DNA of 60,408 nucleotides from a virus, in the IMG/VR virus record IMGVR_UViG_3300021961_000099, positions 1-60,408 of that record. The stretch is one strand, 5' to 3'. The notes under the pieces were generated by a model. The model was not told where the DNA came from, made no database searches, and was given only the letters and a program-made list of their open reading frames with translations. Below are positions 13,264-15,432 of this stretch, piece by piece (position 1 is the first letter of the stretch; each line of letters begins with the position of its first letter). The translations under genes and the position numbers were made by a program.

Positions 13264-14433
13264 TTATTTTGTGTATTTTAATACTTTTTTTTCTATTTCT
13301 TCTAACTTTTGGTTGAATAGTTTTTCGTCAACCATCTGACCCTTGTCGTCAAATATTTGTCCATTGTCATTAACATAGTACTTGAATGGGACTTCAACTG
13401 GTACCTCAACTACTTTTTCGACAGGTACTTCCCTTACCAATTCAACTAACTTTTCGACAGGTACTTCTCTTACCACTTCAACTGGTACTTCAACATATTT
13501 TACAACCTCAACTACTTTTTCTACAGTTTTTGGTTCTGAATTTGTAATGTCTTCAGGTTTAGTTAAATCGTATAAATAACTTTCTGGAACTTCAATTTCA
13601 TCATAAAAATCTTCAACTTTGTCTTCTTCTTTTCTTCTGAAATTTTTGAATGCTTGGTTTGTCGAAATTACAAGTGCTATTGCTAACGGGTCAAAAACAA
13701 AAATTAATGTAAGAATAAAAAAGTTTGCCGTTTTTTTGATATCCCAACCTGTAATTTCGCTCAAATATTTTATAGCTCCTAATTCTCCTGATTCTATTTC
13801 CTGTGATGTCAGATCTAAAACTTGTAAATCCAATTTTGTAATACTATCATTTAAGTATTCTATTTTTTTTGAAATGGTGTCTTTACTGGTCTGTGCCACT
13901 TTCAACTGTAGTTCAAATGCCTTTCTATTACCGCCATTAGCCCTTGTAATCACTTGACCTGTGGTCCTATCTACCGTTTGAGTTGTAGTGTTTGTTGAAA
14001 GCGCGTTTCTTAGATTTGTTATGTCTTTATCTAAAGATTCCTTTTCTTTTTGATATTCCCCTTTTATTTCCTCAAATCTTGTTTTTTTGATTTCTATGTT
14101 TTCAATTTTTTTATTATTAATCTCAAGTCCTGCGATGTTTTTTTGAAACCCTGTTGATAGTAAACCATATATACCTATCGAAGTAAGGATAGAAAGGGTT
14201 ACTAATGCTATTGTTAGATATATTTTAAGTATACCATATGTTTCCTTCCATTTGTCATGAAGATAAGTTGCGATCGCGATTTTTGAAATTTCCAAAAAAG
14301 ATCCCATTATAATAACAGGAAGAGCGACTGCTGAGAAAATTATTGATAAACCTACGACACTATAATAAGCCGCAGTTCCTGATAGTCCTATTGCACAAAA
14401 CAACAAAAACCAAGGTAAAAATTTTTTATTCAT
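13264..14433 (-). CDS. Polytopic membrane protein with coiled coil and VPVEK repeats
   Basis: A 389-residue protein. The N-terminus has about three membrane helices within residues 5-95 (WFLLFCAIGLSGTAAYYSVV, then VALPVIIMGSFLEI and TIALVTLSILTSIGIYGLL). A coiled coil spans about residues 105-205, and a further helix at about 238-258 contains FFILTLIFVFDPLAIALVIS. The cytoplasmic tail holds a Val-Pro-Val-Glu-Lys repeat array (13387-13530). I have seen similar proteins in other large phages, role unknown; one could speculate on a holin-like or infection-exclusion role because the amidase lies three bases downstream. A late-type TATTTAT lies 16 bases before the ATG. Confidence 0.6.
   Translation of the reverse strand: MNKKFLPWFLLFCAIGLSGTAAYYSVVGLSIIFSAVALPVIIMGSFLEISKIAIATYLHDKWKETYGILKIYLTIALVTLSILTSIGIYGLLSTGFQKNIAGLEINNKKIENIEIKKTRFEEIKGEYQKEKESLDKDITNLRNALSTNTTTQTVDRTTGQVITRANGGNRKAFELQLKVAQTSKDTISKKIEYLNDSITKLDLQVLDLTSQEIESGELGAIKYLSEITGWDIKKTANFFILTLIFVFDPLAIALVISTNQAFKNFRRKEEDKVEDFYDEIEVPESYLYDLTKPEDITNSEPKTVEKVVEVVKYVEVPVEVVREVPVEKLVELVREVPVEKVVEVPVEVPFKYYVNDNGQIFDDKGQMVDEKLFNQKLEEIEKKVLKYTK
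13387..13530 (-). repeat. Protein-level VPVEK/VVEV repeat array
   Basis: The coding strand encodes about seven alternating units such as VEVPVEVVREVPVEKLVE. A very similar array occurs in an otherwise unrelated protein at 20125-20330. Confidence 0.75.
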
Positions 14434-14456: not shown

Positions 14457-14498
14457 TTAAAATAACTGAATTGGGGTCAAATATAAACCCTATTAAAA

Positions 14499-14528
14499 TA
14501 ATAAAACCCCCACCGGTACCAGTGGGGG
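14499..14528 (-). terminator. Rho-independent terminator after the sigma-factor gene
   Basis: On the minus strand CCCCCAC (14522-14528) and GTGGGGG (14507-14513) pair around an 8-base loop that holds the palindrome GGTACC. It is followed by TTTTATTATTTT. It ends the sigma-factor transcript about 105 bases beyond the stop codon. Confidence 0.85.
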
Positions 14529-14631
14529 AGTGTAGTTTCATCCTACCGTATAGATAGAATTGAGGAGTTGCACCTTGGTGACTTCAGGCACCTTCTGCCG
14601 AGTTATAAGGGTAATCTCGGTTCAACCCTTT
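14529..14631 (-). ncRNA. Structured 3' untranslated region with candidate H-type pseudoknot
   Basis: This noncoding stretch begins one base after the sigma-factor stop codon. On the minus strand AAGGGT (14625-14630) can pair with ACCCTT (14607-14612), and CCGAG (14616-14620) with CTCGG (14598-14602), in an interleaved order with loops of 4, 3 and 4 bases: an H-type pseudoknot. Further hairpins are GGTG/CACC around 14575-14592 and GTAG/CTAC at 14532-14546. A terminator closes it at 14499. It could be a 3'-derived small RNA or a regulatory element. The stems pair on both strands, so strand is uncertain. On the plus strand ACCCTT is followed by TTTTT, so an independent plus-strand RNA is also possible. 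Confidence 0.45.
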
Positions 14632-15432
14632 TTATAGATAGTCAAACAATTCGGAAGATTCGTTTCGTAGTCTTCGTAAAGCTTTTTCTTTAATCTGACG
14701 AACTCGTTCTTTCGTCAATCCGAAGTCTGATCCGATATCTTCTAATGTTCGGGGCGTTCCTGTTAACCCAAAGTAATCCGCAACTATAATTCTTTCACGA
14801 TCGTCTAACACATCCAACAATCCAACAAGTTTTTGTTTTAAGATATCTTTAGTGTCAAACACAGCGTCAGGCAACTCAGCATCTTTATTTTCAATCATAT
14901 CTAAGAGTGTATCACCATCTTCATTGATGTTCATATCAAGATCGATAATTGATGGTAGTGTCGAGAATTTATCATCAAGTTTTTTTCCTGACTGTTCTAC
15001 TTCTTTTTTAGCTTTATGTAAATCTTGCACTACATTAACCGGTAGTCGAATTGTTCTTGCGTTATCGTTTAGTGACTGAATTATTGACTGTTTGATCCAC
15101 CACACTCCGTAAGAAATAAATCGTAAATCTTTTTCCCAATCAAAGTTTTTTATTGCCTTCATTAAACCAAGATTACCCTCAGCAATTAAATCAGACAAAT
15201 CAAGTCCTTGATTTTGATATTGTTTTGCAACCGTGATCACAAAACGAAGATTACCCTGAATCAATTCTTGTTCAATTCGTTTCCTTTCCGACATTGGTGT
15301 GTCGTCTGACTTCATTTTTTTTGCTAGTTCTCTTTCACGCTCTGCGGTCATTACCTTAATCTTTCTGATGTCTTTAAGGTAGTGAGCAATTTCTTCTTGA
15401 TTGATAGGTGCACCTGTGTTTTTGTCCTTCAT
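14632..15432 (-). CDS. Phage-encoded RNA polymerase sigma factor (RpoD-like, short)
   Basis: A 266-residue sigma70-family protein lacking region 1.1. Region 1.2 lies at about residues 8-38. Region 2 (about 50-115) has NLRFVITVAKQYQNQGLDLS, then LIAEGNLGLMKAI and RFISYGVWWIKQSIIQSL for core binding and -10 recognition. A shortened region 3 follows, and region 4 ends with LEDIGSDFGLTKERVRQIKE for -35 binding. It looks like the short primary sigma of Bacteroidota, unlike the much-reduced T4 gp55. It would redirect host RNA polymerase to phage promoters; whether it reads the TATTTATNA late motif or the TTGAnn/TATAAT class is unknown. A TATAAT lies 9 bases before the ATG. It is followed by a structured 3' region. 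Confidence 0.92.
   Translation of the reverse strand: MKDKNTGAPINQEEIAHYLKDIRKIKVMTAERERELAKKMKSDDTPMSERKRIEQELIQGNLRFVITVAKQYQNQGLDLSDLIAEGNLGLMKAIKNFDWEKDLRFISYGVWWIKQSIIQSLNDNARTIRLPVNVVQDLHKAKKEVEQSGKKLDDKFSTLPSIIDLDMNINEDGDTLLDMIENKDAELPDAVFDTKDILKQKLVGLLDVLDDRERIIVADYFGLTGTPRTLEDIGSDFGLTKERVRQIKEKALRRLRNESSELFDYL

Follow-up and report, generated by a model that had tools for sequence, protein, structure and literature searches.

A predicted pseudoknot-bearing small RNA at the sigma-factor locus of lake phages

A structured RNA of approximately 125 nt, here called RNA A, is encoded on the minus strand directly behind a phage sigma-factor gene in a 60,408-base virus record (hereafter the window, i.e., the whole stretch of DNA that was analysed). 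It is very probably a real, previously uncatalogued small RNA, encoded by a conserved small-RNA gene. Comparison of its homologues shows a conserved order of predicted elements, namely a 5′ H-type pseudoknot, the hairpins P3, P4 and P5, and an intrinsic terminator. The secondary structure is maintained through compensatory changes, as is expected of a structured RNA. With some confidence, RNA A can be read as an independent, accessory, trans-acting small-RNA gene of lake phages. The features of the locus are listed below.

14632..15432, minus strand: gene of a phage sigma-70-type factor (Pfam regions 1.2, 2 and 4); in the window, RNA A forms the end of the transcript of this upstream gene
14634-14632, minus strand: sigma stop codon UAA, followed by a single A and then stem 1
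14507..14631, minus strand: predicted RNA A, from the pseudoknot domain through the end of the terminator stem; supported by covariance model and homologues
14625..14630, minus strand: 5′ strand of stem 1, AAGGGT; GGGU invariant in 64 of 64 copies
14616..14620, minus strand: 5′ strand of stem 2 (pseudoknot), CCGAG; invariant in 64 of 64
14607..14612, minus strand: 3′ strand of stem 1, ACCCTT; same covariation basis as the 5′ strand
14598..14602, minus strand: 3′ strand of stem 2 (pseudoknot), CTCGG; invariant in 64 of 64, pairing proposed from complementarity and geometry
14577..14592, minus strand: hairpin P3, GGTG/CACC plus a closing C-G pair, 5-nt loop and one bulged base; covariation
14563..14575, minus strand: hairpin P4 (AGG/CCT); covariation
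14540..14560, minus strand: hairpin P5; covariation
14497..14528, minus strand: predicted intrinsic terminator, CCCCCACTGGTACCGGTGGGGG + TTTTATTATT, with a 9-bp stem, a GTAC loop and a U-rich tail
13264..14433, minus strand: downstream membrane-protein gene coding for 389 aa (MNKKFLPWFLLFCAIGLSG...), with a hydrophobic N-terminus and without a Pfam match

Structure and covariation of RNA A

On the minus strand, the pairings AAGGGU/ACCCUU and CCGAG/CUCGG are interleaved in the manner of an H-type pseudoknot, with the loops UGAA, AUU and AUAA. A sequence-only reading had described these two stems one base past the sigma stop codon, with loops of 4, 3 and 4 bases, and this layout is indeed found in the sequence. 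The small hairpins and the terminator that it placed further on are present as well, the terminator on the minus strand. It had also drawn attention to a noncoding region of 135 bases rich in structure; the structure is borne out by comparison, but the gap to the next gene (start at 14433) measures 198 nt.

Such a pseudoknot is rare by chance. When both strands of the 60,408 bases were scanned for H-type pseudoknots with 6+5 Watson–Crick pairs, at least 7 G/C and similar loops, the sigma-adjacent pseudoknot was the sole match, and dinucleotide shuffles of the 136-nt region gave one of equal criteria in 3 of 2000 cases. The nested folding energy is unimpressive and only mildly better than that of shuffles (z of -1.75 for the minus and -2.25 for the plus strand), and therefore the case for RNA A rests on comparison. 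The covariance model R1 matches the window at 14490-14631 on the minus strand with 155 bits, the window sequence itself being part of the model's training set. Weak R1 matches below approximately 23 bits, in the window and in the long records, look like chance.

Covariation was assessed in two alignments, one of 47 sequences aligned freely with MAFFT and one of 59 distinct sequences fitted to the covariance model. The latter leans towards the structure because of this fitting, and the free alignment agrees with it. Among the 59 distinct sequences, 94.2% of the cells are paired, and 208 cells are changed on both sides, compared to 60 in shuffles. Over the two alignments, 17–19 pairs are altered on both sides (19 in the 59-sequence set), and the covariation score amounts to 0.295–0.381 vs. 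0.164–0.185 in column shuffles (0.381 vs. 0.185 in the 59-sequence set). With the partners slid, the score is 0.07–0.11 (0.07–0.10 in the 59-sequence set). The changes were counted on the sigma-gene tree. P4 pair 61-75, which alternates between A-U, G-U and G-C, underwent 15 changes on this tree. In P3, five pairs are altered on both sides, e.g., A-U/G-C at 44-58, with 8–9 independent changes at several pairs; P5 has four such pairs, two of them with 10 independent changes, and the terminator has changes on both sides at all 8 modelled stem pairs.

The earlier expectation of covariation in both pseudoknot stems holds for stem 1, where pair 3-25 switches between A-U and U-A at least seven times on the sigma tree, whereas stem 2 is identical in 64 of 64 copies. 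Search patterns that leave stem 2 free retrieve CCGAG/CTCGG only; as no other version is found, stem 2 is fixed in sequence. Because of this invariance, covariation cannot test the pseudoknot pairing, and we infer the pairing of stem 2 from complementarity and geometry. Altogether, the pseudoknot domain is the most conserved part of RNA A, and the linker before the terminator is also well conserved.

Several candidates were rejected along the way. An alternative closing helix proposed by RNAalifold, GGUU/AAAC (columns 5-8/101-104), has changes on a single side and is disrupted in loci L038 and L039, so that stem 1 is preferred. An altered stem 2 in L273 (one match) lies in an unrelated, apparently coding stretch and is due to chance; a match in L315 is likewise judged a chance one. 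A conserved small peptide (MKLHSPTGTGGGF, with its ATG at the 3′ side of P5) was discarded as well: the start is absent in 8 of 57 copies, some of which lack it owing to a compensatory change in P5, and other copies have a disrupted frame.

Diverged copies of RNA A occur at L184:2927, L225:220, L135:1071 (minus strand), L191 and L236, and also at L083 and L108. One diverged subfamily has approximately 55 extra nt before the terminator and another a changed, shorter P5; in the parts read, no sigma gene is among the nearest upstream genes of the diverged copies. The terminator loop (window 14507-14528 and homologues) is often a self-complementary tetranucleotide, i.e., GUAC, GCGC or AUAU, which could let two copies of RNA A kiss.

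Distribution, neighbours and promoters

Homologues downstream of sigma genes were found in related phages. A scan with the sigma protein yielded 80 viral loci, and RNA A is easily recognised behind many of their sigma genes. Of these first 80 loci, 45 carry it, and a second sigma query found it at 18 of 40 loci, partly on contigs shared with the first query. The core pattern of RNA A occurs in 92 viral stretches, at least one of them by chance, and approximately 90 related IMG/VR contigs carry the RNA, many of them at a distance from sigma. The same pattern has no copy in 84,980 prokaryote genomes, and blastn gave no copy among the INPHARED phages and the PLSDB plasmids. Rfam contains no match to RNA A at the gathering score and nothing convincing at relaxed E-values; ARAGORN detected no tRNA or tmRNA. 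Long records have one strong copy or none. RNA A is missing from several long relatives of 270–296 kb, and it is therefore not essential to the group. The sigma tree needs 11 gain or loss changes of RNA A, at least seven of which are required by well-supported branches.

The membrane-protein gene is the usual right-hand neighbour of the RNA A locus. Among 110 complete sigma-to-membrane-gene intervals, 64 carry RNA A, always between both genes, and 41 lack a small RNA of any type that could be recognised. Stem 1 begins 1–10 nt past the sigma stop codon in the window and in many relatives. In others the distance reaches 3.8 kb (2.9 kb in L061 and 3.8 kb in L063). Where extra genes have been inserted, RNA A usually keeps to the side of the membrane gene, L019 being an exception. 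RNA A is often separated from the next co-directional gene by an antisense gene, and many loci have an opposite-strand gene between RNA A and the membrane gene.

RNA A also has transcription signals of its own. Its terminator covaries, and 13 of 70 distinct copies are preceded by a candidate promoter of the type TTTGG-N19-TATATTTG, or similar, ending 11–23 nt before GGGU; the background rate is 0.008 per 100 nt. In several further copies only the -7 part is present, and in the window a promoter adjoining RNA A was not found. This promoter type corresponds to the consensus of the Bacteroidota primary sigma factor (PMC7366714; PMC2483708) and suggests Bacteroidota as the host phylum; the large lake-phage family carrying RNA A probably infects Bacteroidota. 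As judged from the compared loci, positions and predicted promoters show that the placement of RNA A does not depend on sigma.

Candidate roles and competing explanations

In the window, RNA A would be made together with the sigma mRNA, whose 3′ end it would form, and it may be cut out or left there as a stable end. Release of a small RNA from the sigma 3′ end, as was proposed earlier, is plausible here; terminator and position are shared with the sigma mRNA. In other phages, transcription would start at the RNA's own host-type promoter just upstream. Action in trans is the most likely reading. Whether it does so through a protein is in our estimate an even matter. The invariant pseudoknot domain (GGGUUGAACCGAGAUUACCC...CUCGGC), the short purine-rich loops and the lack of a long open seed make a protein- or RNP-binding role fit better than that of a base-pairing small RNA. 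The RNA might serve as a decoy, scaffold or inhibitor, e.g., against a host RNase, a defence protein or a transcription or translation factor. One point against the reading as an independent trans-acting gene is that, wherever the interval is complete, RNA A lies upstream of one and the same membrane-protein gene, an arrangement with which a local role would be compatible.

RNA A could also act in trans as an antisense small RNA, its loops and pre-terminator linker (UGAAACUACAC) pairing with phage or host mRNAs while the pseudoknot merely blocks decay. In its size, and in having promoters of its own and an intrinsic terminator, RNA A is like a typical small RNA, and the linker UGAAACUACAC is well conserved, but conservation peaks in the pseudoknot domain rather than in an open seed, and pairing with the start regions of the sigma or membrane gene is near background, which leaves this explanation unlikely. 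Pairing near background at the sigma start likewise speaks against feedback on sigma, one of the roles first envisaged, as do the copies that lie kilobases away or behind their own promoter and the 41 of 110 intervals without a recognised small RNA. A cis-acting 3′ element of the sigma mRNA, with pseudoknot and terminator shielding this transcript or bringing it to its end, would account for the start of stem 1 within 1–10 nt of the sigma stop codon in the window and many relatives. The idea of a stability element, also raised in the sequence-only reading, conflicts with the observation that other genes or an own promoter can separate RNA A from sigma. Moreover, relatives lacking RNA A can end sigma by a plain terminator hairpin (L010 and L021), and a stability element has no need of an invariant sequence core; we give this explanation a low probability.

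The position of RNA A on the side of the membrane gene, the terminator at its end and an ordered pseudoknot resembling aptamer folds would suit a leader or riboswitch that controls the membrane-protein gene by switching at the terminator. This is very improbable, as an opposite-strand gene often intervenes, the terminator arms vary freely with no matching antiterminator seen, and the promoter-like element ATATTTAT lies between terminator and membrane gene with or without RNA A. Less probable still is a separate RNA or terminator on the plus strand, which had been offered because stem 1 is followed by TTTTT on that strand in the window. The T-run corresponds to a variable stretch of A's ahead of stem 1 (33 of 57 copies have AAAA) and is gone in 24 of 57 distinct copies, whereas the terminator helix kept by covariation and the promoters are all directed along the minus strand.

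Some known RNAs resemble RNA A in part. RNA C and RNA D of T4 are stable small RNAs of a large lytic phage, of unknown role and located in a tRNA cluster. RNA A may be likened to them as a small phage RNA, but it has no tRNA at its locus. The GOLLD and ROOL RNAs are linked to phages. Like RNA A, they are structured noncoding RNAs from metagenomics, GOLLD occurring in lakes, yet they are large and ornate (PMC12286853), compared to approximately 125 nt and no Rfam match for RNA A. The 3′-UTR-derived and intergenic small RNAs of Bacteroidota, e.g., the B. thetaiotaomicron set, share with RNA A the size range, a TAnnTTTG/TTTG promoter, an intrinsic terminator and the occurrence in both UTR-embedded and free-standing forms (PMC7366714). 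RNA A differs from them in being phage-encoded, in its rigid invariant pseudoknot and in having no relative found in bacterial genomes. ToxI, the RNA of a type III toxin–antitoxin system, and its mimic in phage phiTE have an H-type pseudoknot as their unit and illustrate that a phage RNA can neutralise a host toxin (PMC3475682; PMC5086642). RNA A shares the H-type pseudoknot, but ToxI is a tandem repeat array, whereas RNA A is a single copy with three further hairpins. A type III antitoxin RNA was rejected for RNA A, as no tandem repeat was found and the scanned neighbour genes have no Pfam toxin match.

Other small RNAs between sigma and the membrane gene

The interval between the sigma and membrane-protein genes contains at least three further conserved noncoding RNA families (B, C and D), several of them with the same promoter type and a terminator. 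RNA B is a highly conserved noncoding sequence of approximately 120 nt (GTCGGGAAGCTTACTCCTGGGGTCGTAAGTCGTCGTGACACCGCGG...); most copies have a terminator and a promoter of Bacteroidota type, and the loci scanned gave no Rfam match (L007:6023-6230, L019:6046, L280:5880, L289:5909, L299:5908, L303:5909 and L043:7595). RNA C (GGGTAAA...GTAGAAGTGGCTTGGGA...) directly follows sigma and has its own TTTGG/TATCTTTG promoter (L006:5695, L007:5888, L278:2877, and probably L284 and L292). RNA D consists of two consecutive short hairpins, the second being a terminator, with GUCAGAAUAC or a close variant in both loops, which suggests a repeated binding motif (L276:5879, L290:5879, L295:5879, L296:4689, L144:4288 on the minus strand, and L023:5815). 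In L007, C, B and A are found in succession. From these sequences, the locus appears to be an island of small RNAs, comprising four or more RNA families.

If so, host control or counter-defence based on RNA would seem to be a regular module of Bacteroidota phages. More speculatively, the phage small RNAs of this sigma-side island might form an exchangeable set, with RNA A as the first of its members to be described, its pseudoknot domain neutralising a conserved host protein of the defence or RNA-decay machinery during takeover; such RNA-based counter-defence in Bacteroidota phages is a tentative proposal and rather unlikely as a whole. Most noncoding RNAs of large environmental phages have yet to be mapped, and RNA A lends itself to direct testing: its covariation is strong, its genomic address is fixed, it has promoters of host type, and phages with and without it form natural pairs.

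Two minor observations concern the surroundings. The minus strand of the window has 12 copies of the element ATATTTAT, e.g., at 14457, 29202, 39573 and 51454; 7 of the 12 precede the start of a minus-strand gene by no more than 70 nt, making the element a candidate for a phage (late) promoter. Several loci (L063, L174, L222, L167 and others) encode, directly downstream of RNA A and on the strand opposite to it, a small-protein family starting with M-S-L-L-R-E-S-I-R-K-x-L-L-x-E-K-x-I-A. Similar protein starts are found on other nearby genes and possibly represent a shared targeting or packaging signal.
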